Assembly: GCA_027919835.1 (NCBI GenBank)
Contig: JANVFP010000002.1
Coordinates: forward strand, 2,062,044 to 2,126,043
Reading direction: 5' to 3'
Source: Lentinula raphanica
Taxonomy: Eukaryota > Basidiomycota > Agaricomycetes > Agaricales > Omphalotaceae
Length of the DNA: 64,000 nt
A program made the translations under genes and the position numbers. Below the pieces are notes generated by a model. It saw only the letters and a program-made list of their open reading frames with translations, did no database searches and was not told the origin of the DNA. How positions within the stretch are numbered: the stretch's first letter is position 1; the number at the start of each line of letters is the position of its first letter. Positions 37,575-64,000 of this stretch are shown piece by piece.

Positions 37575-37582
37575 TCATGGGC
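37575..37582. repeat. KDZ target-site duplication, left copy
   Basis: TCATGGGC, repeated exactly at 52954-52961 on the other side of the transposon. Confidence 0.85.
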
Positions 37583-37628
37583 CACCTCAACCTCACATCA
37601 ATTGACTTATATAAGGGCCTGTTCAGTA

Positions 37629-37978
37629 AGGACCCCTGATAATACGGTAGGATGACTTATGTCAGTTCGCACAATTTTGACCCCCAAAATGGGTACTCAC
37701 CCAGATTTTCGTTCGCACAATAATGGCCGCCGCAGGCGGAGCTTCAGCCCAGTTCGCACAATATGTGGGCGGATTTGGGCAACTTTTGGGACAAATTTGC
37801 AGGTAGTGGAGGCCGGCATGGAGCGGCACTCGACATACAGCACCTCGGGCCGAAAATTTTGAACCCACCCTCGGGTTCGCACAATTTTTGGTGGAAAATT
37901 TTCAAAAATGGTTCGCACAAAAATGGCCAAATCATACCAATTTAGGATAAGGGTTCTTGGCCTATTATCAGGGGTCCT
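37629..37978. mobile_element. hAT-type MITE inside the Harbinger left end
   Basis: 350 bp with termini AGGACCCCTGATAATA and complement TATTATCAGGGGTCCT. The 8-bp duplications GTTCAGTA at 37621-37628 and 37979-37986 restore an uninterrupted Harbinger terminus when collapsed. 8-bp duplications are typical of hAT. Internally, GTTCGCACAA occurs five times in the same orientation (37665, 37711, 37752, 37875, 37911), which resembles transposase-binding subterminal repeats. Non-coding. Confidence 0.88.
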
Positions 37979-38136
37979 GTTCAGTATCGAAATGACGGCT
38001 GTCAGTTCGAAATGAGATTTCCTATTAGAGCAATGTCAATTTGTTCCATTATCAAGTGTGATTCTGTGTGACAATTCGGTCAATTGTGCCGGTCCGTAGT
38101 CAGTTGGTGGCACCGCGCTGGTATCGATCGAGCACG

Positions 38137-39414
38137 ATGAACAGAGGACAACACTCCGTAGAGCTGCTGCGAAAGCTGATAGCAGCCTATGCATTCCTCC
38201 TCAATGTCATTGTCACTGTTGCTGCTATCTATGCTTCTCCCTATTACTGGAAACAAGACTACCATACATCTGCATTATCAGGGCATGCTTGGGTCCAAGA
38301 ATTGATCAAGGGACATCCAGAACGTATTCACTGTGAGCTTGGAATGCATCTTCATGTATTCATTGCACTGGTAGAGCAGCTCCGTGTTTTGGGTATGCGG
38401 GATACCAAGAATATTCTACTGGAAGAGCAAGTAGCAATCTTCCTCTACATGTGTGTCACTGGCCTATCAACACGTCATGTTGGTGAACGATTCCAGCATG
38501 CTAATGCGACAATATCAAAGTATGTTTTTGCTGTACCTCTGAACCATATCTTGATATTGTCACAGGTACTTTGTAGAGGTTCTTCAAAAACTCTCAGCTC
38601 CTGGTTTTTACAATCGATACGTGCAGCTGCCTGCACAAGATGAACCGGTTCCAGATTTTATCAGATCAAACAAGAAATTCTTTCCCTTTTTCAAAGGTGC
38701 CTTAGGAGCCGTTGATGGTACACATATCACCTGCATCCCTAGTGCAGCCCACCGAGATCTTGCACGGAATCGCAAAGGCTTTTTTTCACAGAATTGCCTT
38801 GCCATCTGCTCCTTCTCTCTCCGTTTTGTATACTTCATCTCTGGATGGGATGGAAGAACAGCTGATGCATCCATGTATGTGGATTCGAGGGTTACTGATC
38901 TTCCTGTTCCGAAGAACCAGTACTATCTTGCCGATGCAGGATTTGGTGCATGCTCTACCCTTCTGCTTCCCTATGCAGGAGTTCGCTACCATTTGAAAGA
39001 ATGGGAGAGAGCCAATGCTAGGCCAGTCAACAAGGAGGAGCTATTTAACTTGCGCCATGCTGTAGCTCGAAACGTAGTGGAGCGTATCTTTGGCATTGTC
39101 AAAGCGCGATGGGTGATTCTCACCCGACCAGCACAGTTCAGCATGGAAATCCAAGCTCTTATCCCCCTGCTCTTGCTGCTCTTCACAACTTCATTCTCCA
39201 ATTTGATCCAGCTGATATTGATGATCTACTCAATGATCACAATCTCTTCAGCAGTGATCTTGGATATAGTCCTGTAGATGATGTTCGTGGAGAGCTTGCA
39301 CCTGGCGCCCCCACTTCAGCGGAAAAAGAGCTTGCAGATCAGACTCGAGATGGAATTGCTCTTGCAATGTGGGAGCAGTATCAGCAGTGGTTGAGGGATG
39401 AAGGTTTATTATAG
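38137..39414 (+). pseudogene. Harbinger DDE transposase, one frame break
   Basis: HARBI1-like transposase (DDE_Tnp_4 type). The start is MNRGQHSVELLRKLIAAYAF. One intron (about 38520-38565) joins HANATISK to YFVEVLQKLSAPGFYNRYVQ. Catalytic residues are visible: D in GALGAVDGTHI, D in YYLADAGFGA, E in NVVERIFGIVKARW. The frame breaks near 39160 in a C run: IQALIP continues correctly only one base out of frame as ALAALHNFILQFDPADIDDL, running to the stop at 39414. One base missing explains it. The catalytic core is upstream of the break, so activity is possible but unlikely. It ends 4 bp from the convergent partner gene's stop. Confidence 0.85.
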
Positions 39415-39418
39415 ATAA

Positions 39419-40706
39419 CTATTGTTGATCGCGAGCCAAAGTACTTGTTATAAATGCTCGATGCCACTCGGGATTAGTGAAACTATTATACATATCCACA
39501 ACTGCCTTGTCCCTCACCAAAATCTGACAAAATGCCATGGCTTCTTCAAAAGGAAGATCAGTTTCTCTCTCAACAAGCTTCACAGCCTTGTCTCGACGAG
39601 CCGGCGTAAGCAACAGCGCCGGGTCAGAAGGAGGCGCTAGAAAGGAGCGCATTACATCACCCATACCTGTAACCTCATTGAGAAGACCAGAAAGAACGTC
39701 TACCCCCTTTGGCTTCTTTCCTGAAGGTAACGGAGTTGCTGTGCTGGTACCTGAACACTTGCGAGAAATTGGTGCAGGAGTTTTGGGAATCACAGGTGCA
39801 GAGTCCTGAAGAAGTGGAGGGAGGCAAATCAATGATCTAACAACACTCGTTAGCCTGCAGTTACAAGATCGGAAGAATTTTTACCTCAGGCATCGTATCT
39901 ATATCCGAGTCATGTCCATCCTCTCCTGCACCTTGTGCCATATCCTTGTCCAATTTTTCGAGGTCCCACTCTTCACTCGCACTTCGAGTCAATCTCGCCT
40001 CTTCATTTTCTGTTGCGCCTTCTTCTACACCTAACGACCGACCCTGAGCTGGACGATAGACATGTGTACCCTTTGGCTTGTAGGGGATGAGCCGCTCCAT
40101 CTTCTGTAGGAATAGCCAACCGTGATTTCGAAAGGGTTTTGCCTTGGTATAATGAGCCACAAACTTCTCCCAGCTATCAGATGTAAGAGCTGTGATGCCA
40201 GCACCGTGTTCGTCACTCCAAGGGCCCCAGCCTGTATGGTCTTTGATCTTCTGAATGATATCGTTGATGCCTTTCAACTGTGTAGGTGACGTTAAGACAC
40301 GCTGGTTTATATGAAGAATACAATAACGCACTGAATTATACTTCGATTGGCATGACTTGCCATCCTTGATTCCTCCCTTCTCAGCAGGCACTGTAGCAAG
40401 ATGCTCAGCAGCGGCATTGAATGTCTTGATTTTGAAGCTAAAGCCCTCTCCAGCCTCAGACCTCTTTTCATAGAGGAAATCCAAGAGTCTCTCAGTTTTG
40501 GCAACATTCCACTGAGCGGGATCATCCTTTCTTTTTCTCCGAGGTCGGCTTTTGGGCTGGGATTGAGAAGCGGGTACTCCACATGTGTGGTTGTCCTCCA
40601 ATTCGGGATGCTCGGACATGTAGAGGAGAGCAAAGTTCAAAGATGAACAGAAAAAAGTAAAGCTCAAACAGGCATCCAGGTCAGGGACCGGAGGTCCTTT
40701 CCTCAT
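39419..40706 (-). CDS. Harbinger-associated Myb/SANT-like DNA-binding protein
   Basis: Second gene usual in PIF/Harbinger elements, thought to bind the termini and help import the transposase. Exon 1 contains RKRKDDPAQWNVAKTERLLD, FLYEKRSEAGEGFSFKIKTF and GKSCQSKYNSVRY, the tryptophan-spaced trihelix/Myb-like block of fungal Harbinger partners, then GWGPWSDEHGAGITALTSDS. An intron near 39840-39890 joins DSDIDTMPE to the C-terminal exon, which ends WHRAFITSTLARDQQ. A later in-frame ATG at 40619 (MSEHPELEDNH) may be the true start, since the leader before it is hydrophobic and unlike the family. No lesion seen. Confidence 0.8.
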
Positions 40707-41192
40707 TAGCGTAAGAAAGTGGATGACAAATCAATAATCGGACAGGTGAGCCGGCTTAGTAAGGCTGGTCACATTGGGTCACAAAATCAGAAAGAAATGA
40801 GATTTTGAAATGAAGTGTCATTTCGATACTGAACAGGCCCTAATGATGCCAAGCACGGTGGTGTATGGCATCCTTGTACAAGTCAAATGTGCTGATTCTC
40901 ACTATGTGGCAATAAATACTTGAATATTGTCAGATATTTCAGATATAGAAGGGGTCCAGAGGCCTCCATAGACCCATCATTTGTAGTAGGTAATGGTTCG
41001 TAATACTATCAGCCGGAGTCTTGCCGCGGTCAAAGCGTTCGTTTGCATCCCGCCCAATTCTCATGACCTCGACTGTGAGAAATTCTCGTCACTGCTTGTT
41101 TCCCGCCCTCCCGCCTTTATCCCGCTGGCGCTTAAAACTTTCGGAGTTCAAAACCACTTAGAAAAACATCTAGCGCATCAATTTTTGTCCAA

Positions 41193-41473
41193 CATCAGGA
41201 AAAATATTCTCATCTCTAGAGTCTCCAGAGATACCCCCCCATTCCTAGGTAGTCTCAGAGAGCCTAGAGTATCTGAGTTCTTTGAGGCTTCTAAAAATTC
41301 TCTGGGTGCTTTCTGGTGCTTTCTGGTGCTTTCTGATGCTTTCTGATGCTTTCAGGATCTTTCAGGATCTCTAGGATGTTTTTTGATCTTTCAAAGTTCA
41401 CAAAAATCTCTGAGCAGCCTAGGAATTGGGGGTATCTCTGGGGACTCTAGAGATGAGAATATTTTTCCTGATG
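41193..41473. mobile_element. CATCAGG-family MITE, copy 1
   Basis: 281 bp, with about 30-bp inverted ends beginning CATCAGGAAAAATATTCTCA and dinucleotide AA on both sides (41191-41192, 41474-41475). The inside has a minisatellite of GGTGCTTTCT-like units (about 41308-41370). It sits just inside the KDZ left arm. No coding capacity. Confidence 0.85.
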
Positions 41474-41519
41474 AACGGCAATGAATTCAAATAACGATAA
41501 CTCGTTCGACAACACTACG

Positions 41520-43107
41520 CTAAGCACTAGAAGTGTTTGTTACGTCTGCGGCAACTGCCCTCTTCTTTCGTGGGCCACGAGGTTTGTTCGCATCCGAGCG
41601 TTTCTTCCTCTTCTTCTGAACATAAGCAACACCGGTACCGTCCTCTGCCCTCACCGCAAACGAGTTGACAAACGTCGCAGTAGTCGAGGACGTAGCTGTC
41701 GAGTCCAAAGGAGCGCTAGTGTCTGCAGTGACGGATTCACTAGGAACGATGCTCTGGCTGGTGGGCGTCGCGTCGGCAGCGTCTGAAGTGGGATCGTTCT
41801 CACTGCGAGGTTGCTCCTCCACCACCTGAGTTTGCCTCTCAGCTTCGTGGAAACGGTTGGGATTTCGACTCCACTCGGCGTATTCAGAAGCAGTCATCTT
41901 GTAAAAGTGAGTGTTGTCGTTCTGAAAGGATGCAGTGAGGAGTCGAACATCGGCTCCTGTAGTGAGACTACTAGGGCACACGAATTTGATGCCGGGAGGC
42001 CAGTTCTTCAATATAATGCCAAACGGAGCGGTGATGCGTTCTCCGAAGTTGGTGTATAGCATTCGGGAGACTTTTGTTTTCCCAGCACATTGCTCTGATA
42101 ACTGTTAGTTACGATAATGCGTTGGACGCAGAATACTCACGAAGTTTATCAAGAATCAACTGAGCAAGCTTGGCCTTTTCATTCTGCAGTTGCTGGGCGT
42201 ACGAAGTCACGACTCCTTCGATGCCTGAAAGCATGTAGCCTTCCATCCTCTTGCCCAACTCATCCGGTCCCATCTTGAACGCCAGGGAAAAGAACTCCAC
42301 GACACGGTTGCTGGAGACTACGATGCGGGGGGCGTTGAAATGGCTGAGATCACTGCGCACAGTGATCAGAATGCTCTCGTTGCCGGTACGCATCACCAAG
42401 CGCATCAACTACATAGGTCAAGTGGTCAGTTAAATATGCAAAGACAGTAAGCCTTGTAACTCACCGCCTCTTCGCAGCCATCCAGGGTTAGCCGGGAGTC
42501 ATGGAATGCTGCAAGGGAAGTATTGTGATGACCGATTTCTCGGTTGACGCGGTTCTCCTCTAGGACGTCGATATGGTCCTTTGTAGCTTCCATTCGTTCC
42601 TCTTCATTCATGGTCGCCCATTTCTTCGCAATCTCAGTAATGTGATTCGACAGCCTTTCCTTGTCTCCTCCTGGCGCTACACCTGGATATGCTTTCAATA
42701 AAGAAACAATAGTATCGAAATAAATTTTGCTTGCCTTCATTAATTTTCGCCATCTCTAAGCTCGTGAAAGCATTCCACATTCCAGAACGTTTTGCCCGAA
42801 TTTTCAAACGATGCGTCTGATATATGTCGTCCACGATTTGCTTGACAGTATACTTGCCACACTCCTCTCTGATTTTCGTAGCCTCGTCAAAAATCATCGC
42901 TTGGACGGCCAAGATTTTCTCGGTGTAGAGAGACTTCTCGTCCGAGCGCCTTTGCTTTCGAGCCAACTTCTCCTGATTGGTGAGTTTCTTGACGTTCCGA
43001 GGTTTGACCCTATAACGCCAAGGTCGCCTCGACTGTCCTTCAGCCCGAGCTTCACTGAGGAACTGCTCGAGGGCTTGACCTTTTTTCGCAGTCTTCAAAC
43101 GTGGCAT
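41520..43107 (-). CDS. KDZ cargo: nuclear protein with HMG-box-like region
   Basis: Four exons. The start is MPRLKTAKKGQALEQFLSEA, then a basic coiled-coil-like region (EKLARKQRRSDEKSLYTEKI). Across the first intron a helical block reads RSGMWNAFTSLEMAKINE, AYPGVAPGGDKERLSNHITE and IAKKWATMNEEERMEATKDH; the W/F spacing and KKW..M...ER pattern recall an HMG box, but the match is weak. Later exons give VRSDLSHFNAPRIVVSSNRV, NFGERITAPFGIILKNWPPG and FVCPSSLTTGADVRLLTASF. The C-terminus has a bipartite basic signal, KKRKKRSDANKPRGPRKKR. A DNA-binding nuclear partner of the element is inferred. The frame looks intact. Confidence 0.65.
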
Positions 43108-43221
43108 GGAGAGTACGGTGGTACGATGAGACAACAAAAAATTCGACTGTTATTTTTCGACACTATTGAATATACATTTGAAAGCACAGTGCAGAGCGAC
43201 GGAGTGTTTACATTGCGACGG

Positions 43222-44559
43222 TCAGTTGGTAATTGAACCATGATAAAGGTCAAACAAGAAAAGGGCCAATCCTTCGGTAATCACGTCACCAAATTCCTGC
43301 TGGACACTCTCGAAGAAATCTTGGCAATCCTCAGCGACGGAGAGCATATTCTCGATGCCTTCAATCGAGACACCATCCCACTCTTGACAGAACAGATAAT
43401 GGCGCACCCAATCGCTACCAGAAGTTTCTTCGGCATGATCGCGACCCTTCCCCTTCCCCTTCGGCTTCTGTTTGGTTGGGGACTCGCCGTAGGAGATATT
43501 CACGCTAGGCAAATAAATGACAACCCCACCAGATGCCGTCGGAACAGGTGTATGCAGACTGCCGGTATCGAACCCACGATCTGGCGTGTAAGGACAGGGG
43601 GCAGGCGACGCAGAGGCTCTCTGACTCGCAGAGGCTGCAGCAAGACGGTTCAGAATCAACGTCGGGGCAGGAGAGCTCTGAGGAGTGTTCGAAGCCGATA
43701 CAGCGGCAGAAGGGCTCGAAGGCATGTTCAACGCAGCAGATGGTGTAGGACCAGGGTTATTAGTAGCTACAGTCGCACCCGCAGCAGCTACAGTCGACGG
43801 AGGGGCAGCAGTCGAAGCAGTCGAAGCCGCAGGAGGGGCAGCATTCGAAGGGGCAGCAGTTGAAGGGGCAGGAGAGGCGGGGGCAGGTGCTGTAGGTGCA
43901 GGTGTATGGAGCGTCGTAGACAAGATTCCGTGGGGATACACGCTCGCACGAATAGTCGCTGCATCAGCTGGTTGAAACGTTGGATTATAGTTGTACAGCA
44001 AGCCAGCGGGATTGGCATCGAACGAGATCGCAGAGTAAAGGGCTTCACGAAAACTTCCAAAACCAAAAGCTCGGCGAAAGGCAGCCCTCGAATTGTCGAC
44101 GCTCTGGAATGCTTCGCGGCTATACGATAGTTTGTTACTGCAGATTGAATGAGTTGAGCAGGTAACTTACGTGCTTTGATAAATGCCAGCGTGGGTGGCA
44201 TACCGAGCATGCCACCAGATCCTAGTGCCTTGACCTAAACCTTCATCTTGTATCAACGCCGCCTCCGTCGTACTGAGCTCGTTCGAGTGCAAGATCGCGG
44301 AAGCAAACTGAGCAGAAGAGGCGTTGGCGTTCTGCGCAACGAACGGTTGAAGGTTATCGAGAATGATCCTCGCTTGACTGTTTGTATTCGCCTGGATAGA
44401 AATGGGGAGATGCGGACCATTTCCCCCGCTTCTCCTCCATTGCCTGCGAACGAGAGAAGTGAGATGATAGATGTGTATGATCAAAGAAATTACTCACATT
44501 GTGGTGTGTAGGCTTCCGCCTGTGGGACTGAGAAAAACGAAACGTTGTTGCATGGACAT
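43222..44559 (-). CDS. KDZ cargo: Ala/Pro-rich protein of unknown function
   Basis: Not recognised. Three exons: MSMQQRFVFLSPTGGSLHTT, then WRRSGGNGPHLPISIQANTN, NLQPFVAQNANASSAQFASA and WWHARYATHAGIYQST, then REAFQSVDNSRAAFRRAFGF, YSAISFDANPAGLLYNYNPT. A long Ala/Pro/Ser tract follows (APTAPAPASPAPSTAAPSNA and on), encoded by repeated GCAGC/GTCGAAGC units. The C-terminal globular part reads DWVRHYLFCQEWDGVSIEGI and FGDVITEGLALFLFDLYHGS, stop at 43222. Its start lies about 300 bp from the dioxygenase's likely start in divergent orientation, so the two may share a promoter. The family is probably confined to such elements, which is inference. Confidence 0.6.
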
Positions 44560-44855
44560 GGTCGAAAGAGATCAAGAGATGTTTGGAACTCAGACGGTTG
44601 ATTTTAATCTTTTATACCTGCCCTGCAAAAATTTATAGAAAATGCGAAATCGATGGAAATCCGACGGAAATATTCTGTGACATGAATCAAAGTCTTGTGA
44701 CTTGCAACTACCACTCCGTTCGACTTGAACATGAAGATCAGATTGAAGCTGAATCGCGGTAAGTGATGATGATTGAAGCTTCGTAGTTGAACGTTGGTTC
44801 GTGCATTGGGGAAGCCCACATCAAACTCTGAAAAAATACTTTGAATACCTGTGCA
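44560..44855. promoter_or_regulatory. Divergent promoter interval of KDZ cargo genes
   Basis: Roughly 300 bp between the Ala/Pro-rich gene and the TET/JBP gene. It includes a TTTTATACC stretch at 44611 on the plus strand (TATAAAAG on the minus strand) about 50 bp from the minus-strand start, a plausible TATA box. The right border depends on the uncertain dioxygenase start. Confidence 0.4.
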
Positions 44856-46476
44856 ATGGGAATTCGAGGTTATTCTTTCATTGTGCTGTTGTGTGGTATT
44901 CCTTGGGGGCATGAGCCAGCGTTCAGTGCAGTTTCTTGGGTGCGAGGAATTTTAGTAACATTTCTCTTTTGTCAGATATAGGGAAAGATTTGGGTGTCTC
45001 TGCTTACATACTAAGCAGTGGTTTCAACTTCGCAAATGCTTTGTTGGACGTAGTCCTGTACGAATCTGAACGGGATGAGCTTTTTGGTCAGACCGACAAC
45101 GGCCACGAAACAACGCCTTCACCACTAACAAGCTTACCTCCTTCTCCTCTGCCTTCACGGTCAGTATCCCCGCTGCTGCAAGACCCAAACCCTACCGCAG
45201 CTCCGCCGAAATCTCAGAGCCGTAAACGACATTCCAAAAATCAAAGCAAAAGAAACAAGAAGAAGCGACGGCTCGAAGAACCAAAGAATGCAGCTTCCAT
45301 TTTGCCTCGTTCTGCAGCGACCACGAGACACGTCACAGCTGCAGTGCCTATTCCTTCGCAGTTCACTACCTTGACCGACGCCAAAGTTGCTTCGACCGGA
45401 TATGTTGGGTTACGCACTGTGGAACCCGATACAGATGGCCAGGAGTTCTCTCTTTCGGACCTCGTCGGTTCTCAATCGAAGTTTGATTTCAATTTAATTG
45501 AGTGGAATGCAAAGTAAGCGCGCGCCACACAGTCGAGTGTTCTTGTACTAATGCATTGCTTTTCAGACAGACCATGCCCATCATCGACAATGATGGTCGT
45601 CTGACCACCATCCTTGTTGCACCACCTCAAATGGTTGAGTGGAAAACGTGCACCCATGCCGCTACCGAAGCTCTGAAGAAGGAATGCAGCCGGTGTGGGT
45701 TTATGGCAGAACAGAAAGATCATCGCCGAGGCAAGTTCCCAGCACTATCATCTGGTATTCTCTACGGCAATGGCATGACGGTACGTTCATATTCAAATCT
45801 TGAACACGGACTCATCTTCTCCATTATGATTCAGGAACCTGCCAACATATCACACAACGTGAAGAATACCGCTGCACTGAAGCGCTTGACAAGCCATTGG
45901 GCGTTCGAGCGAATGTCAGGTTTTGTCACGGGGGTAATGAAAGTATGGGCTCCACGTCTCTACAACTACTACGAAACACACCTCGACGCCGTATTGGACT
46001 CTGACTCGCACCTCCATCGGCCTTTCGAGAACAGCGTTTTCGCCGCTGCCGCATTCAATTTCGGTCCCAAAACTGTCTGTTTTCCTCATGTTGATTTCGG
46101 TAATCTTCCATTCGGATGGTGCCCAATATGGTCTTTGGGAAAGTACAACTACAAGAAGGGTGGCCATCTCGTGCTGTGGGACTTGAAGCTCGTCGTCGAG
46201 TTTCCTCCAGGTTCACTGATAATCATTCCTTCAGGAGTACTTCGACATTCTAACACTTCCATCGCGTACCGTGAGACTCGGTATTCTTTTACACAATACA
46301 CACCTGGAGGGCTCTTCCGCTGGGTTCAAGATTTTGGATTTCAGACATTCGAGAACTACGTTAAGTACCGTGACCCAGCAGCTGCTAAGCGAGACGATGA
46401 GGAGAAACGGCGCCGCTGGCAAACGGGGTTAAGCTTATTCTCGACGTCGTCAGAACTTGGATGGGACATTAGCTAG
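44856..46476 (+). CDS. TET/JBP-family 2-oxoglutarate/Fe(II) dioxygenase carried by the KDZ element
   Basis: Predicted oxidase of 5-methylcytosine in DNA. Characterised agaric relatives (Coprinopsis cinerea CcTET) convert 5mC to hydroxymethyl, formyl and carboxyl forms. The N-terminal half is disordered and basic (SRKRHSKNQSKRNKKKRRLE, a nuclear signal). The core begins QTMPIIDNDGRLTTILVAPP, then RRGKFPALSSGILYGNGMT, intron, EPANISHNVKN. The Fe ligands are H and D in FPHVDFGNLPFGW and the distal H in GVLRHSNT; the 2-oxoglutarate Arg is in RETRYSFTQYTPGGLFRWV. Two introns around 45516-45567 and 45781-45834 splice in frame. No lesion in the catalytic domain. The first exon is unsure: an ATG at 44856 with a weak donor joins in frame to IGKDLGVSAY; the region from about 44975 is secure. 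Confidence 0.85.
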
Positions 46477-46896
46477 ACCACAATATACAATGCTTTTACA
46501 CACACATGAATCTGTCATTGAACATGAGATGAACCCTTGAACTATGCTTGCACGATGATATTTGAAAGTATGAGTTGAATCTATATGAAATCTCAACCAG
46601 AAATCTGCCCATTTTATCATATATCAATACTATGTCCTCCCCCCCCTCAGTGAAAGAGTGTCTTGAGTGCTCATATATAAGTCTACAGCTTATTCAACAT
46701 TTCTCCTACATCCACTACCCTAGTACCATTGAAAACAACGAGTTTTTTGCAAGATTTCTTGGTGTAGGCGCCCATAAGCGCTCGCAGGAATTTCGCCACG
46801 CACAGAAGGAATTTTGCCACGCACAGAGGCGCTACTCAGGCGGCAATGCTGAGTGCTGATTACCAAATACTCCATTTCACATAACTCCTACCATTG
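46477..46896. other. KDZ internal spacer with short tandem repeat
   Basis: About 0.4 kb. GGAATTTCGCCACGCACAGA is followed at once by a near-identical copy with TTTTGCC (about 46787-46830). No gene recognised. Confidence 0.5.
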
Positions 46897-47938
46897 ATGC
46901 CCAAACAACTCCATGGACCACCGCCTGACAGCCAACTAGAACTTCACGGAGAAGAGGAGAAGGAGTTCCTGAAGTCGCTGGGCTATGACAATGATTTAAT
47001 GGACTTTCTGATTGCCACTCGCGCAGATGCAAGACGGTATCATACCCGGAAGGACCGTCAACGAGAATACTATCAGAGGCAGCTATCTTTCTCTTTTCAC
47101 TCCATCTTCTCTCATGCTCTGTGCATATAGGAACCGCAAAAAAAAACTCATGTACCAGAGAGAGCGCCGAAGAAAACAACGTGAAACCGAAACTGTGGCA
47201 CAGAAGGAGGCGCTTAGAGCTGCTCGTCGTTACTCACAGGCTGCATATCGAGAACTCAACCGAGACTATCTTCGAGTGAAGGAAGCTGAGCGGCGCGCAT
47301 GTCTTAAATCATGGTGTGTCCTCTCACTTCTTCACAAGCAGTTGATTCTGACTCTTGCTTCAGCAACGGAAAAATGTCTACTCAATGATCCTGATAGCTA
47401 TCACTTGTTCGTTTCGTTTGATAATATATCCCATCAGTTCGATTCTTTCGCCGACGGTTTGGACCCTTCCCCGACGGTCCAAAGCCTGCATAAAGCAGGC
47501 TTGTGAGAAATCAAAGTCCCCCTCCTTCGACTCTCTTCGTTCCATGTCTTCTGCAATAATTTGGCCTTCTACACCCCTGCCGCCTTTCCAGCGTCCTGCT
47601 CACTGGCCATCACACATTGATCACCAAAACATCTATCTAACTGGCGAAGCAGAAAGGAGAGCCATTCTGCAGACAATCGAAATCGACGAAGGTGTTTCGA
47701 GCGAGGCTGTGGAGGCTTATGTGGACGGTTTCGTAGCAGAAAGAGATGAATATCGTCGCCGAATGGCTGAGATCCGACCAACCATTGAAACCAAAATTCG
47801 GTGAGTGAGTGTTCACACAACGCAAACTAAGTCATCCTTATGTTCTGCTTCCTCAGGAATGAAATTTTCATGCATGTACAACGAGCGTCTTGGGCTAACG
47901 GCTGGCCAATCACAGAGGCAACTTTGAGCAAAATCTGA
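46897..47938 (+). CDS. KDZ cargo: charged, coiled-coil hypothetical protein
   Basis: Not recognised. It starts MPKQLHGPPPDSQLELHGEE and continues EKEFLKSLGYDNDLMDFLIA, then after an intron KKKLMYQRERRRKQRETETV, QAAYRELNRDYLRVKEAERR, a highly charged helix likely to form a coiled coil. One reading stops at 47506 (SPTVQSLHKAGL). A further exon, NIYLTGEAERRAILQTIEID, VDGFVAERDEYRRRMAEIRP, splices in frame to RNEIFMHVQRASWANGWPIT and stops at 47938. I could not find a splice that joins the two parts in frame, so this may be one damaged gene or two short ones. It is convergent with the transposase. Confidence 0.4.
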
Positions 47939-48090
47939 CTTGTAGCGTACGAGCAAGCAGAGTATGTAATTCACCTGACACTTAGAGAGGAGGATGCCAC
48001 AGCTCGTGTGAGCGATGAAGCCTCTCAGCGCTGGGTCGACATTGATTGAATGTACATGATATATGAATACAATGATATATTATCGTGTCC

Positions 48091-51000
48091 TTAGCTCGTA
48101 ACATTTGACAGGTAGTCTGATATAGCGCTAACATACGATACAAATTCATCGTCGTCTTCACCCGCACCACCTTCATCATCTGATTGACCTCCATTCGATA
48201 TGCGATCCAATTGATTTTCTCCGACGGTTGAAGAGCGCGGTGAACTAAGTGGCGCGGGAGCCGATGGTGGGGATTCATCCGATGTGTGCATAGAAACTGA
48301 CTTGCCAGGGTAAGGAGTGCCTGTGAATCCAGGCAGGGCGTACGTCAGCTGCATTCGAGCAAGCAGGAGCTTATGGACAGCTCTGCGTTGCTCAATGAAC
48401 TGCATCACAGCTGGATACACGGGTGACGAGGATTCTGAGAGACGGTCGAGAACAGTGACGAAATGCTTTTCCTCGTCGACGATCGAAGTGTGCAGGCGGC
48501 GTAGTTCAATATTTAGCCGAGTGATTTCTTCCCAAGCGCAAGAAACACGCCGAACCTGCATCATGAGTTCACGTATCACCGGCTTAGCCCAGGGCTTTTC
48601 CAGAACACTGTACCGAGTGTCGGCGAGGAGGTCGAATTGATCCAGGAAGGAGTAGTGGGAAACTTTGGACCAGTCGACGGTTGGACGAGGAGGATCGAGG
48701 TTGAGTGCCGCAGCGTTGTATGTAGCTACAGCGTTGCAAATAGCTTTTGACCGTTTTTGAAGCGTGTGGGCGATCTGCGTTCGCATCTTGTAGCCTATGA
48801 AAATGCCAAAGATCGTTGAGTGCAAGATATTCGAAATGGTTGGGACATAACGTACCGGTTTGCGACAGATTCATTTTGTGCAGCTCCCATAGCCGTTGTA
48901 CCACCAATCGATGTAACTTCAACAATGCCTCTCGATACTTCTGCTCATCCATCCTCTTCACCGCCGCACGATACTCTGAATCTTGAGGTTCCCAGCGCCG
49001 CTGTATATCGAGTAGCGCTTCATTTGCACTACTTGAAAAGTAAATCTTTGTGTTGTTCCTTCAAGTACTGGCGTTTTGTTTCGATTTTTCATGTTTGCGA
49101 GAGTTCGGTGTTGTAGGATGAGGGATCATTCAGGAATGCGTAGTCCGACGGGGTTTTGGTGTGAAGACCAAAGAGACCAATGTCGAGAGACTTCCTGAAG
49201 CCATAACGTGCATGAGATCAAGCTGTAAGAAAGAAGTGATGATACTCACTTGACGCCTTGTAATTGCTGAAGGAGACTCACGTACTCCATTGTGCGAAGA
49301 TCATGCGGGTCCTCAGTCTCCAGGGTGTCGAAATGTTGCTTTTGCTCGGCCCAGTACGTTTCGATGTCGTCCTCAGTGAGCTCAAGCTTCTGGAGCTCAG
49401 CAAACAATCGGCTCGCGTCCTCATTGATTATCTTGAGTGCTGAACGTAGTTATTGTGCAGGAACGTGGCAAGCGACTGATACTTCTCACGATCCCATTGT
49501 TGGAAAAAGAGATCGATGAATTGTCGACGCCGGTAGGGTGACATGTAACGAGTGACGGATGCAAGCTGATTAGACAGGGAGAATATTTGTTCAAGTGTTT
49601 CAAGGTCTTCGAGGCCCATTCCAACAATGTTGTTAGGGTGATTGGCTTGTTGACATGCAGCATTATGCGAGTACCCATGGAATGCGTTGACGCAGGTACG
49701 GCACTCCTTGGCGTTGAACTCCGGTCCCAGGGAGCTACGGTCGATGGTGCCGGCGAAGCTGCATCCTATATCGTAACCAAGCAGCCAATGTCGTCAAATA
49801 CTTCCAGTGCCTTGGCAACATAGCAAGTGGATATTTGGCGCTGTGAGATGAGCGAGTCAGAGAGAGTGCAAGCGAGAATGAATCAATTTCCATACAGTTC
49901 GCCGCTACGAATCATATCACAGATCCATAGAATGAAACCATGCCGACATGCACTCGCAAATATACCTGACTCTTCAAAGCCATCCCACATCCTTTTTTTC
50001 GATTCTGCCGAGCTCGCCTTCCAGTTATCGGTGCAGTGAGAAAAACGACTATTGGGTGTAGAACCGTCAGTGGGATCTCCAGCATCTTCGTCGACCCACT
50101 CATCATCTTCCTGGTGTTCTTCGGCTGTAGATAAGTGAGCCCTGGGGCCCGAAGCTTTGGTCTTGACTTTATCACGAAACTGATCGACATATTCGGAGCT
50201 AAGATAAAAATCACTGCCACGAAATTCCCGTGTGTTGGCTGCCTGACGGTTACCGACGGACTTGAGCCGTTTGAGTGAGTTATTTCCATCAATGACAAAC
50301 ATCCGCTCAAAAATGAGCGAAGGTTCGTCTTTGAGCTAACCACGAAGGTCAGCATTTTATCACAACATTGAAGCAGAGCTTACCTTATAATTACATGGAG
50401 GACAGCTATGCAAAACGCGGTAGTCTGGCGTATTGTGCCCCAATTCTTCCGCAATCCGAGCATCGACCTTTCGCCTAAGGGTAGATATATATCAAATGCA
50501 TCTGAGAGATGTGTGCGATACGTCCGGCGATATGGAACCTGATTACGGTGTCAGAAATCAGAAGGGATTGATGATTGAAAGTTGACACTTACTCCAAGGG
50601 TGTGACAGATAGTCTTGGCAAAAGCTTCGACACTGAACGATGGTTTGAACAATCGCAATGAATAGAATAACTCTAATGTACGTAGGGCGATTGCAACTGA
50701 TGGATTCACAGGCGTTGTTCCGAGGTACCCCGCCTGGACAAGAGCAACAGCAACAGGGGTCTCGCTATCCCAAGGGATGATTGCTACACGCGCCAGAGTA
50801 TGTATATCGATTACGTTGATATCGAAGTCCCAAACCGTCGACAGTGGGAGAGGCAGTGGGATCCTTAAAAGTGACGACGTTGGGTGGGTCTTGATACTTC
50901 CATTGAATATACATGTCGGTCATGGGTTCGAGGTGTGGCTGCCAATTCGCGGCGTTTTGTCTGAGACGTTGCGCCCATGTTCGTCCATCGACTCGTTTGC

Positions 51001-51458
51001 AAAAACCTGAATATCTTGAAGCAAAGGGACAACAGTCAGTCCAGAGGCGTGTCGAACTGCATCCGAAGACTTACTGGCTGAAATGCATGACATTCGCAAT
51101 GTCTATTATTATACCTGCACTGTCGGCACTTCCGTTATCGTCCCGTTCTTCAGCCTCCGGCATTCCATAATTGATATCATCCATGTCATGCTCGAAAGAA
51201 GGTGTCGCATCCGTTGATCCAGCGAGTGACTGAAGAGCTTGTTGCGAGCTATGGCGAGACCTGTGAAATTGTGAGGGAGTGCAAGATGTGATACACCTCT
51301 GAAGACGTACTGTCCATTGCCTGTTGGAAGGTCTCCTTGACCTTGCGGCGATTTTCCTCAAACTTCTTAACTCCAACTCTAATCCTTTGCGTAGCGCCGC
51401 CCCTTCGACCACCACCGATTGTCATTTGTACCGAATTCAATCGACTTGCTTTAGGCAT
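48091..51458 (-). pseudogene. KDZ transposase, broken by several frame breaks
   Basis: Transposase of the element. Recognisable blocks in order: MPKASRLNSVQMTIGGGRRG; RTWAQRLRQNAANWQPHLEP; VAVALVQAGYLGTTPVNPSV, LELFYSLRLFKPSFSVEAFA; PDYRVLHSCPPCNYK; FVIDGNNSLKRLK; CTDNWKASSAESKKRMWDGF, FASACRHGFILWICDMIRSG; LLGYDIGCSFAGTIDRSSLG, CVNAFHGYSHNAACQQANHP, GMGLEDLETLEQIFSLSNQL; YKMRTQIAHTLQKRSKAICN and the C-terminus. Between blocks the frame slips without usable splice sites near 50850, 50480, 49795 and 49770, and each slip fits one lost base. Normal GT-AG introns occur elsewhere. The copy is therefore very probably inactive. The acidic C-terminal tail ends SAISDYLSNVTS. The gene starts 59 bp inside the right arm's inner border. 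Confidence 0.85.
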
Positions 51459-51516
51459 TGTGCATTGTATATGAGGATGAGAAAGAGGTAGTGTGTGGAT
51501 CCGCGCAGAAACTGTA

Positions 51517-52953
51517 GCGCTGAGATGTTTTTCTAAGTGGTTTTGAACTCCGAAAGTTTTAAGCGCCAGCAGGATAAAGGCGGGAGGGCGGGAAACAAGC
51601 AGTGATGAGAATTTCTCACAGTCGAGGTCATGAGAATTGGGCGGGATGCAAACGAATGCTTTGACTGCGGCAAGACTCCGGCTGATAGTATTACGAACCA
51701 TTACCTACTACAAATGATGGGTCTATGGAGGCCTCTGGACCCCTTCTATATCTGAAATATCTGACAATATTCAAGTATTTATTGCCACATAGTGAGAATC
51801 AGCACATTTGACTTCATCAGGAAAAATGTACTGAGTTCTCAGCCACTAAAAGCTGCTTTCAGGCCCCCTAGAGCCTTTCAAGGCTTTGGAGCCCCAAAGC
51901 ATGCAAAGATACCCCCCAAATCCTAGGCACTCTCAGCCACTTGAAAGGTCTGGGGTATTCTTTGAGGTGCTTTGAGGGTCTTTGGGTGTCTTTGAGGATC
52001 TTTGAATGTCTTTGAGTGTCTTTGAGTGTCTTTGAGTGTCTTTGAGGATCTTTGAGTGTCTTGAGGTGCTTTGAGATGCTTTCAAAGGCAAAAAATATGA
52101 ATAAAAATCAATTGATTCCTCTTATTTCTATTTTACATTACATTCTATTTCATATTCTTGTATTATGTAATTTCTAATTATATTATATTACATAAGACTT
52201 ATATAATTACAAGAATTTGTAATGTACTAGTTAATTATCAAATTATATAGAGAATTTAATCTACAAATCTCATCTCTAAAGTCCTTCATTGAGATATGAT
52301 AACATATACAACATGTAGATATGTAGTTAATATAGCTATATATAAGTTTGGACCATGTGACAAACTTTTTGATTGTACATGGTTCACGGTGGCAGCCCAA
52401 ATATATCATTGAAACAAGATCTTGTCAAAGTTGTCAATGGTAGTTTTTGATGCATGTATCTTCTAGATTAAGCAAGTTCTGCAATGCACTTATGTAATTT
52501 CCTATTTGGGTGATGTTTTCTTTATTTAATTTGATCTTAAAAGTTGCTAAAAAGCTCTGCAAAGACCCTCAAAGATCCTCAAAGATCCTCAAAGATCCTC
52601 AAAGACCCTCAAAGACCCTCAAAGATCCTCAAAGCACTTCAAAGCACTACAAAGCAGTTTAGTGACCTGGGTTACCTGGGCAATCTAAGCCATTGAGGCA
52701 CTTTCAGAGTCTCTAGGAATTAGCCATTTCTTGAGGTGCTCTCAGATTAAAGTATATCCCTTTGAGGTTGCCTAAGAAATGCCCATTTTCCTCAGTGCTT
52801 TCTAGCTCTCCTAAGCATGTAGGCCCTCTAGAGAGCCTCAAAGATACTTATAGTTGCCTAGGCCTAGAGTATTTTTCCTGATGTTGTACAAGGATGCCAT
52901 ACACCACCGTGCTTGGCATCATTATATAAGTCAATTGATGTGAGGTTGAGGTG
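51517..52953 (-). repeat. KDZ right inverted arm (split by MITE copy 2)
   Basis: Complement of the left arm; 51517-51814 and 52886-52953, interrupted by the MITE. Relative to the left arm, the only substitutions are at the partners of 41028, 41037, 41088 and 41123; in all four the left has CG and the right has CA or TG. Confidence 0.85.
51815..52883. mobile_element. CATCAGG-family MITE, copy 2, with inverted minisatellites
   Basis: 1069 bp. The ends are CATCAGGAAAAAT and complement, flanked by TT on both sides (51813-51814, 52884-52885); the intact left KDZ arm has TT once at this place, proving the insertion. Near the left end is a tandem array of TCTTTGAGTG-like units (about 51960-52080), near the right end its inverted counterpart CCTCAAAGAT (about 52560-52640). 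The centre (52090-52450) is AT-rich. No transposase. Confidence 0.88.
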
Positions 52954-53342
52954 TCATGGGCTATGTCCGTGGAGGCTTATGTCCCAATTCGGACATAAGC
53001 CAATGCACATGACTTTTCCCATGACTAACCCATCCTAAGGTCGCATGGCCTGCATAGAGCAGACTTGAGGCTGGTGTAGAACCTAGAAAATTAGAGCTTG
53101 AACAAATTTTACTAGTTTCATCATCTTACTGTCTGATTTTGAGCTTCATGGGCTATGTCCGTGGAGGCTTATGTCCCAATTTGGACATAAGCCAATGCAC
53201 ATGACTTTTCCCATGACTAACCCATCCTAAGGTCGCACGGCCTGCATAGAGCAGTTTTCATTCACTTGAGGCTGGTGTAGAACCTAGAAAATTAGAGCTT
53301 GAACAAATTTTAGTTTCATCATCTTACTGTCTAATTTTGAGC
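52954..53342. repeat. Two tandem units of a 192-bp repeat with an internal hairpin
   Basis: Unit 1 starts at 52954, unit 2 at 53146, both beginning TCATGGGCTATGTCCGTGG. Each contains the inverted pair GGCTTATGTCC and GGACATAAGCC separated by about 6 bases. Units differ by three substitutions (two at CpG) and two small indels. The KDZ target duplication is the first 8 bases of unit 1. Confidence 0.85.
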
Positions 53343-54108
53343 TTCTACTATCAAATTTTGTCATGTCATGAAGAATAAGACTCGAAAAACTGGATTGAAC
53401 ACCAAGGGAAGAAAGCCCGAGGCCGAGTCAGCCGATTACTTGCAAAATCAATCTTATCTATCTTATCACTGACATCTTATCAGAAATCAGTAGATTGCTG
53501 GTCTTCAGCATGACAGCTCAGCGCGCTCAGGAAGAAACTCTCACGACATCTTGAAAATCATTGGTTGGGGCTTATGTCAAATGGGGCAGTTGCCCAAAAA
53601 GAGATAAGCCTCGCGCGATGTTGATATACCTAAAACGGTCTTGATTTCGGATAAGCCAAACCTCAAAATTTTGAGAATTTGAGTGGATTCTACTTCAAGA
53701 AAAGAGATCCAGAAGGTGAGACTTGATTACAATAATCCCCTCCCTTCTTTCTTTTTTTTTTCTCTTTTTCTCACTTGAAAAAACTTGAAAAAAATGAATT
53801 CTCCACAGACATAAACCATAAGCCATTTTTTTCGCTCAATTTGGTAAATGTCACAAAACTTATTTCTATTGTCCTCCATTGTGACTGTACTCCTCCATTG
53901 TTGTTGTCACTTCTGTCACAATAACTTTGCTCTTCTCCCCCTCTATTCGTCGCTGTCACATTCTTTGTGTTGGCCATTGTTCTCCTTCATTTCTCTCATT
54001 GTTCTGGTGTGACTCTTGTCCTGCTGCAATTTGTTGCACTCATCACATCTCCTCTACATATGCTCTACCTGTCTTCTCTCTCTTCACCCAATATCCCTCT
54101 TCTGTCAC
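53343..54108. other. Repeat-like non-coding stretch
   Basis: GGCTTATGTC recurs near 53568, as in the 192-bp repeat. A long pyrimidine tract lies at 53741-53776. The ORFs are low-complexity. It is probably part of a degraded element whose borders I cannot set. Confidence 0.4.
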
Positions 54109-54116
54109 TGCATGCA

Positions 54117-54367
54117 TGACCAAATAAGTGGCCCCAAAGTATGCTGAACTTATTTTAAATTCTCGAATAATGGGAAAATCTTAAGTTGCCCCACATGGTA
54201 AAACATATCTTAAACATATTCTGAAAAATGACCATATATGTAAAATTATGGTCAACTTCTGGTAAAAAATCTAATTAAGTTCACCATATATGGCATTACT
54301 TAGTATCTTCTCGTTATTCGAGAATTTAAAATAATTTCATCATAATGTTGGGCCACTTATTTGGTCA
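54117..54367. mobile_element. 251-bp foldback MITE with 8-bp flanking TGCATGCA
   Basis: The ends TGACCAAATAAGTGGCCC and complement are perfect inverted repeats. A second inner pair, TTTTAAATTCTCGAATAA, lies at about 54152 and 54315. TGCATGCA occurs on both sides (54109-54116 and 54368-54375); it is itself a palindrome, and the bases just outside (AC and GT) also pair, so the target duplication could be read differently. The size fits a hAT-like MITE. Non-coding. Confidence 0.75.
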
Positions 54368-54375
54368 TGCATGCA

Positions 54376-55313
54376 GTGTGTTGTCCTCATCTCACACTCT
54401 ACTACGGTGACTTTCAACAAACTGATATTCCTTATATTTTAATTTTTAATACTGACTCTTCACTGTTGTTCCTCCAGTATTCTATTCGTCGTCCATTCTG
54501 TCTATACATGCTGCCTTCCTCTGTGCATCTTCTTCATCGCTGAAGCCCGGCCTTTTCCTCAATGTAAGCGTTTGTCCTACATTCGTGAGCTTCAGCTGAT
54601 TCTTCGCTTCCACCTTCAGCCATGCTTATACTTTGCCATATTGGATTAGCAATGCCGTCGTGTCCCGAAGGAGTTAGCACAGAAGGGTGACGAGCACAAG
54701 CACAAGCACAACCCTATACAGGGTAAGGGTGAGGTTGATCCAGCAGCAGTGAAGGGCACACGAAGCCAATCAAACTAGGGCTTCAGAAGGAAAAGACAAG
54801 CTAGTTCCCAATGACCAAGTTAGTAGTATTGAGTGTGAGTAGGATACAAATACGAACCTAGTTCCCAATGACCAAGAGGTCGAGATAGGGAACCAGGAGT
54901 CTAGCTACAGTGGTATTTATACTGAGTGAAACAATAAGTACCCAAAGCAGTAGAGATGAACAGCGTGAGTGAAGAAGATTGGAAAATACAATAACGCGAG
55001 AATGTAAAAGGTGTAGTGCGAGAATGTGAAAGGTAAGAGCGAATGAGAATGGTTGGAAAGATAAGGAGTAGTGACAGCGCGAGAGACAGATATGAAGAAC
55101 AATAACACAAGGACCATAGTGCGAGAAAGGAAGAATGGTGACAGAACGCGAGAGGAGAATGATAAAGCATGAGAAGAGGATTGATAATGAAGCAGGAGGT
55201 GATTGCTAATTGTAGTGAGTCATGAAGAACGATCAGGTGGTAGCAAGGACATATGATGCAAAAAGGAGTGCATGTGATAAGGAAAAATGACACACATGTC
55301 AGATGTCACGACA
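54376..55313 (-). repeat. LTR region of the minus-strand Ty3/gypsy element (outer border unknown)
   Basis: On the minus strand the LTR starts TGTCGTGACATC at 55313, directly after a purine tract (GTAGGAGGGGGTAA, 55314-55327), the usual order at a 3' LTR. A TATA box, TATAAATACCACTGTA, lies near 54907-54922 and closely resembles the plus-strand element's LTR. CTAGTTCCCAATGACCAAG is directly repeated at about 54802 and 54860. The far end of the LTR was not found, so the left coordinate is only the neighbouring MITE's edge. Confidence 0.5.
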
Positions 55314-58300
55314 TTACCCCCTCCTACAGTCGATGTCCCAGCGACTACCTCTGTAAGTTTTCATAGGGTTGCCATGGAAGTGAGTTGAAGATGGAGGCTG
55401 CAATTTTCCGTGGTGCATTTGGGTGAATCTTGTAAAAATCTTCAATTTCTTCATCTGCCGAGCCCCGTATGTTCTCCTCGTTTATCCATTCATGACCTTC
55501 ATCATCCTTTCCATCGGACCAGGAATTGAAGCTTCTTCCATCGACCGTAGAAGCGACTGTCAAGAACCTTCTCTACCTCATAAAACTCTTCTCCTTCTAT
55601 AATTTCTGGTTCCGGTGGTGGTAGTGTCCCATTCACATCATTGCCCTTCCAGGGTGACAGCCGGTTCACATGTATGTTATCATGGATTTTCATCCACGAC
55701 GGAAGATTGAGTCGGTATGTTAGTGGACCTGTCTTTTCTACCACCTCGAATGGTCCAAGTCGTCTGCTTCCAAGCTTCTGGTTCTTTTGTCGTATCTTTA
55801 ATTTGTTGAGGGAAGCCAGACTGGTTGGCCTACATCAAATGTCGGTGCTTCCCTCGGACTTCTTCTCTGATCCGCTCTTTGCTCATACGTAAAGCTGCTT
55901 CGGCATCCTCTCTTGCATATTTCAGCAATTCCAATCGTTTATCAATTGATGGGAATTTGTTCCAGATTCCGATTGGAATGTTGAATTCGGGTGTATAGCC
56001 GTAGAGTGTTTCGAAAGGGGAATGTGAATGAGCGGAGTGGATTCGAGAATTAATGACAAATTCAGCAGTAGGGAGGAATTGTCCCAATCATCTTGTCGTC
56101 GACTTACGTACATTCGGATGTATCGCTCTATCTCCTGATTTGCACGTTCTGTTTGCCATTAGTTTCTGATAGGCTGTGTGAGGGCGGATTCAATTCCCAG
56201 ACGTTTCAATAATTGTCGCATCACATCTGCCGCAAACTGCGGTCCACGATCTGATACGAACCGTCTGGGAATTCCATGAAGGCGGAAGATCTCTTGGTAA
56301 AAGAAATCTGCTACACCTTCTGCAGTTATCTCCGTAGTTGTGGGGAAACAATGGATCATTTTGGTATAGTGGTCGACGAATGTGATTATGGCATTGTGGC
56401 CTGCTTGCGTCATTGGTAACTCACCAATAAGGTCAACGCCAATGTCCTCCCAGGGACCAGCTGGAACAGGTAGAGGTTGGAGCGGTGCTGTATGGGAAGG
56501 ATTTAGTCGTTTCCGCTGACAAACATCACATCCTTCAACATATTTGTCAACAAAGGTACGGATACCTGGCCACCAGTACTGTCTGTTGACTAGCTCCAAT
56601 GTTCCATGCATTCCTGGGTGTCCTGCTGTTCGTGAGTCATGGCATTGCTCCAGTACTGCCTTACGCAGTTCTTGGTTAGGTGGAACATATATCCTTCCTC
56701 GGTAGAATACTAGACCCTCCTCTTCTCGCCAATCAGTCAATCCGTGAGTAAGGCTCTGTGGTCCATTGAGCTTGTTGAGTGCCTCAATTACCTCTGATTC
56801 TCGGGTGCTGTTCTGTCGTATACTTTCTAGCAATGGATTGTCAAGTAATACTGCAGTTGATGCCTTGATGAAATGCTCGGTTTAAGTACAACTTGTTCTT
56901 TGTTGTCCTCGGAATCATGCACCTGGTGTTGTGCCATGCGAGATAAGGCATCCGCTTGTGTGTGAATCCTTCCCACGATGTGTTAGATGGAAATTAAATC
57001 GTGATAACCAGAGAGCCCATCGTGCCTGCCTTCTGCTCAAGTCCTGTGCCGTTCGCCAGAATTCTAGATTCTGATGGTCTGTAATGATTTCAAATGGTTC
57101 GGGTAATCCTTCCAGAAAGTGCCTCCAATCTTTGAGCGCTTCTATGATAGCAAGCATTTCACGATCATAGATTTCATAATTACGCTCTGCTGGCCCCATA
57201 GATGCTGACCGAAATGCCACGGATGCCAAAGGCCATCTTCTTGGAGTTGTGATAGGGTTCCGCCAGTGGCAAAACCGGATGCATCGACTTCAATCCGTGT
57301 GGGTCTGGTGTGGTTCCATAGCACTAAAATGGGTGCAGTGGTGAAGGCTGCTTCAGGCTGTCAAATGCTTCCTGCTGTAAAGTGCCCCAGTCCCATCGGA
57401 TATCTTTTCGTGTTAAGTCATTAAGGGGTCTTGCCCTTTTCGCAAATCCTTCAATAAACCGCCGATAGAAGTTAGCGAAGCCCAGAAATCCTCGAAGATC
57501 ACGTAGTGATTTTGGTGTAGGCCATTCTTTTACGGCTTTGACCTTAACTGGATCCATCTGAACCTGTCCTTCGCTAATGACCAGCCCCAGGTATTCAATT
57601 GATGACTTTTCAAACTCGCATTTCTCGGGACGCAGATAGAGGTCATGCTTGGCAAGTCGATCGAGGACCTCATGAACTAGTTTTCTGTGCTCCTCCAGTG
57701 TTTCAGTAAAGATCAGGATGTCATCCAGATATACGGCAACCTTTCCAGATGCAATGAGGTCCGCAAAGATGGAATTCATGAGGGCCTGAAATGTGGCAGG
57801 AGAATTGGTGAGACCGAAGAACATAACCAGGGGTTCGAATAGACCCCGGTTAGTAGCAAATGCTCCCTTCCATTCATGACCTTGTTTGATCCGCACATTG
57901 TTATATCCCCATCGAACATCAAACTTGGTAAGATCTTGGAATTTTGAAGTCGGCTGATGATATCTGCAACAAGGGAAGGGGATAACGATTCTTGATGGTG
58001 TAGTCATTCAGTCGTCGATAATCCTGTACGAACCGGAGTTTACCATCCTTCTTTTTCACAAAGAAGACTGGTGATGCAATTGGGATTTACTATACATACA
58101 GTAGTAGAAGGCTGTATGTAACCTTTACAAGATTTCTTTCAAGAATCTGTCAAGCTCTTCTTGTTCGTTAAGTGACATGGGGTAGATCTTGGTTCGCATT
58201 GTTTCAGGGGCATCAGGTTTGAGATCAATAGCATGATCCCAGGGTTTGTGATCAGGAAGACGTTCTGATTCCTTTCAGAGAAAACCTTTGAATGTCGGTG

Positions 58301-58660
58301 ATATTCCAAGGACAATTTCTTCAAATGATTGCTTTGGTTTTTCTCAATAAGCTGCCTCTGCCAATTGTTGGGAATAGGTGTATCCAGCTGCACACCAAAG
58401 TTCTTCTGTAGCATGGTCTAGAACTCCAGACCGACACAAGGCTCTTCTTTGTTTCCGGTTTCTGAGTAAGCGGTAGAGGGGTGGGGCATCATCTCGCAAG
58501 TCCTCCATTTCATCAGCAGTTGGTGTCGGCAATGGAACATGTTCTGGATTGATTTCTAGTAGATCTAAAGTGGTTCCCCCTACGTTAGCCATTTGGGGTT
58601 CTGGTACTTCCTCAATGACCATGGGGTGGGCTGATTTTGATTGTACTAAAATACGGCCCT
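55314..58660 (-). pseudogene. Decayed Ty3/gypsy chromovirus pol (RT, RNase H, integrase, chromodomain)
   Basis: Retrotransposon polyprotein on the minus strand. In order: linker with TEELWCAAGYTYSQQLAEAA; reverse transcriptase with FGLTNSPATFQALMN and YLDDILIF; RNase H with RIEVDASGFATGG and YDREMLAIIEALKDWRHFLE; integrase zinc finger H...H...CDVCQRKR; core with [33 protein letters not shown]-terminal chromodomain near EEFYEVEKVLDSRF and FLVRWKG, followed out of frame by a Trp-bearing block and the end near 55345. Frame breaks occur near 55510, 56160, 56990, 57210 and 58000, with loss of the block after the integrase core. Gag and protease are missing because another element interrupts it at 58660. 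Confidence 0.88.
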
Positions 58661-60222: not shown

Positions 60223-60251
60223 TAATATCTGATCTCCAACTGCCCCCAGTT

Positions 60252-63654: not shown

Positions 63655-63696
63655 GTGACTCAGGCCGAGGACTGAGTCAGCCCACTGATACCTCGG
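63642..63696 (+). promoter_or_regulatory. Candidate -1 ribosomal frameshift site with H-type pseudoknot
   Basis: Slippery heptamer G GGA AAA in the gag frame (63642-63648), 7-base spacer containing the gag stop TAG, then stem 1 TGACTCAG/CTGAGTCA (63656-63663 with 63672-63679). Loop bases CCGAGG (63665-63670) pair with CCTCGG (63691-63696) as stem 2. The -1 frame is open from here through the protease motif. Confidence 0.65.
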
Positions 63697-64000
63697 AAAC
63701 ACTTCGGGGAGTAAACACCAACTCTACAAGTGATCCTGCGGTGATCAATTCCCGGACTAAGCATTCCTTCATTATTAAAACTCACCTCTTCATGAACTCT
63801 AATAATATTCCCACCCTAATTGATTCCGGAGCCTCTCGAAATTTTATTGACCAATCACTTGCTAATGAATTCGCTGAAACATCACCCCACTCCACAAATC
63901 GATTTCACTCACACTGTTTGATGGCAACACCACTTCGGCAGGACATATCACCCACCAAATGGAAGCTACCATACGGTTCGAAAATGGACTGTACATTATG
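63655..64000 (+). pseudogene. Ty3/gypsy aspartic protease and start of pol, truncated by window edge
   Basis: In the -1 frame after the gag stop: IPTLIDSGASRNFIDQSLAN, the retropepsin active-site motif D-S-G-A. Downstream family-like residues (LTLFDGNTTSAGHITHQMEA) appear only after one more slip near 63880-63912, again fitting one lost base. The rest of pol is beyond the window. Confidence 0.75.

Follow-up and report, generated by a model that had tools for sequence, protein, structure and literature searches.

We analyzed a window of 64,000 nucleotides that forms the right end of contig C2 (JANVFP010000002.1, positions 2062044-2126043) in the assembly of Lentinula raphanica (GCA_027919835.1; 49 Mb, 75 contigs). 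The window contains a KDZ transposon, here termed insertion B, whose two inverted arms differ internally at four positions, each involving a CpG dinucleotide. An initial annotation of the sequence had ascribed these differences to deamination of 5-methylcytosine (5mC), had regarded their restriction to one arm as notable, and had proposed that the substrate of a 5mC oxidase, predicted to be encoded by the element, was written in its own termini. Below, W denotes the window sequence, and A and C3 a second and a third insertion. The features of the locus are as follows.

37583-52953, no strand assigned: KDZ element, insertion B, with ends CACCTCAACC..GGTTGAGGTG.
37575-37582 and 52954-52961: 8-bp target duplication of B, TCATGGGC.
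37583-37614, plus strand: outer piece of the left arm, defined by the inverted repeat and the arm alignment.
37615-40840, plus strand: Harbinger-type element splitting the left arm of B, with DDE_Tnp_4 at 38555-39277.
40844-41172, plus strand: main piece of the left arm, with CG at 41028, 41037, 41088 and 41123.
41193-41473, no strand assigned: second small insertion, at the inner edge of the left arm, with ends CATCAGG..CCTGATG and a 2-bp duplication, AA.
45502-46476, plus strand: open frame for a predicted TET/JBP-like (AG-type) 2-oxoglutarate/Fe(II) (2OG-Fe(II)) dioxygenase, 324 amino acids from stop to stop.
49428-50335, minus strand: KDZ transposase domain (PF18758), in two open-frame pieces, 49428-49793 and 49883-50335.
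50551-50919, minus strand: CxC1-like cysteine cluster (PF18802, slightly under the cut-off).
51517-51814, minus strand: main piece of the right arm, with CA or TG at the homologous positions 51571, 51606, 51657 and 51666.
51815-52883, no strand assigned: insertion resembling a miniature inverted-repeat transposable element (MITE), splitting the right arm, with ends CATCAGG..CCTGATG and a 2-bp duplication, TT.
52886-52953, minus strand: outer piece of the right arm, defined by the inverted repeat and the arm alignment.

The two pieces of the KDZ transposase matched PF18758 in a profile search with E = 1e-38 and 3e-29. The Harbinger-type element is flanked by a 3-bp duplication, TAA (37612-37614 and 40841-40843), and contig C7 carries the empty site; the small insertion at 41193-41473 is also missing from C7, which holds the left part of copy A. 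The MITE-like insertion has almost no CpG (observed/expected ratio, o/e, of 0.03 over 51815-52885) and contains long repeats with a 10-bp period.

When the left arm of B (37583-37614 plus 40844-41172) was aligned with the reverse complement of the right arm (51517-51814 plus 52886-52953), 361 columns contained four internal differences, each with CG on the left and CA or TG on the right. The annotation had thus read them correctly: G at 41028, 41037 and 41088 and C at 41123 in the left arm correspond to T at 51666, 51657 and 51606 and A at 51571 in the right (plus strand). One further difference, a transversion, sits in the final column of the alignment (41172), at the end of the homology. With about 22% of transitions expected to be of the CpG type by chance, four of four gives p = 0.0025 alone.

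A search with the arms returned at least 11 matches, resolving to three insertions, B, A and C3. The left end of insertion A, which is flanked by GACATAAT, lies at C7:1528284 and the right end at C2:10190; the third insertion, at C3:336154-360526, matches at 83% in its arms and has a target duplication TTGGCAGT. Target duplications with defined ends are of 8 bp in B and C3; that of A, GACATAAT, is divided between C7 and C2. Both arms of A carry CG at all four sites, and the right arm of B is therefore the derived one, having lost its four CGs. C3, read by eye, has CG at the sites corresponding to 41037 and 41123, with TT or TG at the remaining ones. The arms of C3 themselves show five internal differences, all five of the CpG type; pooled over B and C3, the arm differences are 9/9 CpG (p ~2e-6). 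At 40902/51792 the same transversion is present in both arms of A and absent from B and C3, which suggests that arms are homogenised by conversion.

All four losses in B fall in the right arm, as the annotation had said, and it could be supposed that this arm alone is methylated or exposed, lying beside the transposase promoter or the MITE, so that the one-sidedness would be functional. We consider this highly improbable: a 4:0 split has p = 0.125, C3 lost four CpGs on the left and one on the right, and losses in the interior of the element are equally dense. One-sidedness was dropped as a biological effect for want of support, the imbalance in B being neither beyond chance nor repeated in C3.

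The bias is not restricted to the arms. We compared A with B over 10,734 columns, leaving out gap columns, the stretch 49018-49037 (misaligned around a short indel) and the outer piece of the left arm. Of the 97 transitions, 86 were of the CpG type (expected fraction 0.259; p = 1.2e-38), the remaining substitutions being 11 other transitions and 6 transversions. The per-site rate ratio for CpG was 54 (confidence interval 29-101), or 22 (12-42) on the conservative assumption that all other transitions are charged to non-CpG C:G sites. CG dinucleotides were conserved at 91% and 95%, against 99% for GC. Losses affected 4 of 60 CpG positions in the main arm pieces and 82 of 1298 in the rest (p = 0.79; 86/1358 overall). 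Given this equal rate, the termini were rejected as a special methylation target, and the suggestion that the substrate of the oxidase was written there is not supported; what stands of the initial interpretation is CpG deamination as the likely cause, since scoring the other family copies revealed the same bias (A/B 86/97; C3 arms 5/5). Across eight open frames, of which four could be identified, the losses caused 29 nonsynonymous and 20 synonymous changes, as expected for random CpG hits (0.63 nonsynonymous; p = 0.56).

A spectrum with so high a CpG ratio and so few other mutations might also arise if duplicated DNA were mutated actively in bursts during the sexual cycle, as in repeat-induced point mutation (RIP), rather than by gradual deamination of 5mC that is kept in place; for basidiomycetes, CpG-biased mutation has been likened to RIP (PMC4352252, PMC4014442, PMC6980582). 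We regard such bursts as unlikely, because the losses do not form runs: by copy there were 41 runs (39.5 expected) and by strand 40 (43.1 expected). Nor was there a preference for TCG, as in the RIP-like process of Pucciniomycotina (34 losses at TCG and 52 elsewhere; odds ratio 1.24, p = 0.36), and their density is low (86 of the 1358 positions). Three near-identical 1-kb copies of another KDZ family had no substitutions at all among them, although they may simply be young. The CpA-biased C-to-T change of Neurospora-type RIP was not found either, 86 of the 97 transitions being of the CpG type. Losses that are mixed by copy and strand, show no TCG preference and ignore the codon fit independent deamination of methylated CpG in silent resident copies.

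The interval C7:1528284-1540171 has the left flank of A (GACATAAT) but the right flank of B (TCATGGGC). Within the element, W and C7 showed substitutions only at or to the left of 45876, and none occurred between 46049 and 54750, in both cases apart from the misaligned stretch 49018-49037 and, in the latter, from indels. This suggests a misjoin or a crossover rather than a fourth insertion: C2 may belong inside C7, or C7 may be the product of a crossover between direct copies. The right arm in C7 was therefore dropped as an independent confirmation of the four changes, since C7 probably repeats DNA already assembled in the window or else results from a crossover. Speaking against simple identity of W and C7 are 44 substituted columns in the flank, between 54760 and 58134, inside a multi-copy retrotransposon. 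The window has a long terminal repeat (LTR) retrotransposon family with many copies at 54661-61000, and 58140-64000 is without substitution relative to C7; difference over 54760-58134 next to identity over 58140-64000 is a pattern that gene conversion or a switch in the assembly would give. A telomere repeat was sought at the start of C2 and not found.

In a long-read assembly, CG/TG differences could be consensus errors at methylated CpG. The end of C2 does look poor, since relative to C7 over 52954-64000 the window has 36 small deletions and only 2 occur the opposite way; this one-sidedness makes insufficient polishing of the contig end probable and reading frames in it unreliable. Nevertheless, we think it very unlikely that such errors account for the pattern. 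W and C7 agree in base from 46049 to 52953 outside small indels and the misaligned stretch (they may, however, be one DNA), C3 repeats the same pattern, and the relevant codons of the oxidase are supported by a protein, P0002.

Among named proteins, the closest to the oxidase frame was P0002 of Lentinula raphanica, 94% identical to it in the alignment. No copy detected in the present genome has an identical sequence, so P0002 probably derives from a different assembly. A and B encode different amino acids at six codons of the frame, and at every one of these P0002 carries the amino acid specified by the CG state, agreeing with A at three codons and with B at the other three; this argues against a base-calling artefact. 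In the frame, which the annotation had predicted to encode a 5mC oxidase, H196, D198, H249 and R260, corresponding to the HxD..H and R of 2OG-Fe(II) dioxygenases, are invariant in 6/6 aligned sequences. The frame itself gave no match to Pfam Tet_JBP; of four related sequences put through the scan, two (at 40 and 43% identity) matched PF12851 under the cut-off. Genome-wide the oxidase frame was matched at least 105 times and the KDZ domain at least 158 times, a large expansion in which gene pieces count separately. TET/JBP-encoding KDZ transposons of Agaricomycetes are said to have been described by Iyer in 2014.

Conversion of CG to TG or CA is what long-term methylation of DNA usually leaves behind. 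A profile search placed the C5-methyltransferase domain PF00145 over the cut-off at three host loci, two of which were covered by a comparison with PDB, the third (L025) lying outside it. One frame appeared DNMT1-like (best match E = 3e-12), and one DNMT5-like, matching the Rad8 structure 7r76 (E = 3e-82). By sequence, the host would thus possess candidate C5-methyltransferases of the DNMT1 and DNMT5 types.

We consider it likely, from the sequence comparisons, that the four differences between the arms reflect, on a small scale, host CpG deamination acting on methylated resident KDZ copies. The losses themselves are derived, spread over the whole element at an equal rate, replicated, mixed by copy and strand, and indifferent to codons. 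Resident copies would be methylated at CpG by the DNMT1/DNMT5-type enzymes of the host, and methylated cytosines would deaminate to thymine singly, turning CG into TG on one strand and into CA on the other. The losses would arise after the copies had settled, which arm lost its CpGs would most simply be a matter of chance, and the element's own predicted oxidase need not take part.

Several observations weigh against this interpretation. Copy A was assembled from two contigs (C7 on the left and C2 on the right) that share the flank GACATAAT, and we infer methylation of the cytosines in A and B from the substitution pattern. A 3-kb stretch outside the elements had a full-length match to itself only, so that the assembly appears haploid and a single-copy host control is not possible. 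The CpG losses between A and B were divided unequally (57 in B and 29 in A, p = 0.003), which clock-like decay from one split does not predict, and their contexts were slightly uneven (ACG 29, TCG 34, CCG 12, GCG 11; p = 0.036). Other repeats gave lower ratios: between retrotransposons, LTR pairs had ratios of 2.9-17 in 25 of 28 cases, the others being one pair at 0 and two at 44, and MITE copy pairs had ratios of 1.6-10 in 20 of 21, the last pair being identical. In favour of the interpretation, the 5' and 3' LTRs of the same element, compared over 3,958 columns in six retrotransposons with both LTRs (from at least 43 matches), differed by three CpG transitions and one of another kind. The retrotransposon body differed between the window and C7 by 21 CpG and 14 other transitions, a comparison that leaves out 54751-54774 and 58101-58139.

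The less expected part of the result was that a high CpG ratio between recent copies was accompanied by a low one at greater depth. B and C3 belong to two subfamilies diverging by about 24%. After overlapping or weaker BLAST blocks had been dropped, 7,924 columns were kept, with 306 CpG and 743 other transitions (rate ratio 1.9, 1.7-2.2) and with CG conserved at 50% and GC at about 60%. Outside the identified frames, in the main pieces of the arms, CpG and other transitions numbered 11:30 between the subfamilies and 9:0 within elements (p = 7e-5); the former count leaves out the outer right piece, with 0 CpG and 6 other transitions. A recent ratio of 22-54 against a deep one of 1.9 implies that the strong decay is recent and a feature of resident copies.

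One reading of this contrast is that the transposing, TET-carrying KDZ lineage escapes CpG decay, and that only copies left in place pay; in its boldest form, the oxidase would keep the active lineage free of 5mC mutation, and CpG loss would date silencing. It leans on the contrast in ratios and on a CpG o/e of 1.0 against 0.03-0.85 in neighbouring transposons: the body of B has 1.00 and C3 0.98, whereas the Harbinger-type element has 0.61 and the retrotransposon 0.78 when its LTR is included and 0.85 for the body. Protection by TET is also favoured by another KDZ family, a 1-kb piece of which has 1.04. We nonetheless find the escape unlikely, and the deep contrast would fit as well a recent arrival of the element or a recent onset of methylation. 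As a reason for high CpG, TET protection is weakened by eight Tet_JBP loci (excised, out of 28 matches, with 500-base flanks), whose o/e is 0.53-0.79; carrying such a gene alone does not preserve CpG. Further weakening comes from the LTR retrotransposon, a family not searched for a TET frame, whose more distant copies likewise show lower ratios.

CpG decay in mushroom transposons has been published before and is likely the ordinary cause of what is here a real, replicated signal. CpG-biased decay of transposons was described in basidiomycetes with a Masc2-type Dnmt1 (Amselem 2015, PMC4352252), and CpG decay of repeats in the agaricomycete Tricholoma matsutake (PMC6980582). In common with both, C-to-T change at CpG occurs here in repeats of a host with DNMT1-class sequences. 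Unlike them, it is resolved to single insertions and two arms, with direction, and set against deeper divergence; compared with the Masc2-type hosts, the present sequences are DNMT1-like by their PDB match. In Rhizoctonia solani AG8, CpG hypermutation between nuclei strikes genes and repeats alike, with about 40% of C-to-T changes at CpG, and its authors expected a CpG, not a TCG, bias in Agaricomycotina (PMC4014442). The CpG-biased C-to-T change in a member of Agaricomycotina is shared, but here 86/97 transitions (89%) were at CpG, within one transposon family. The available parts of PMC8889193 and PMC12543289 held nothing further on CpG mutation, and the papers listed on Lentinula DNA methylation, transposable elements and CpG included none on Lentinula transposons by title.

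As for the element itself, TET/JBP-carrying Kyakuja (KDZ) transposons are known from Agaricomycetes, and two Laccaria families of Kyakuja have 7-bp duplications and no terminal inverted repeats, while Zisupton has terminal inverted repeats and 8-bp duplications (Kojima 2025, PMC12730594). The present element resembles Kyakuja in its KDZ transposase, its AG-like TET/JBP frame and its CA..TG outer bases, but differs from the Laccaria families in its 8-bp duplications (three insertions) and inverted arms of 360-460 bp. The ends CATCAGG..CCTGATG of the insertions at 51815-52883 and 41193-41473 resemble the CATCA..TGATG ends of PlavakaB (PMC12730594). Set beside these systems, the locus offers a clean, replicated, single-insertion view of CpG decay in a mushroom transposon with its own probable 5mC oxidase, and it opens the question of whether such oxidases shield a transposon lineage from mutation caused by silencing.

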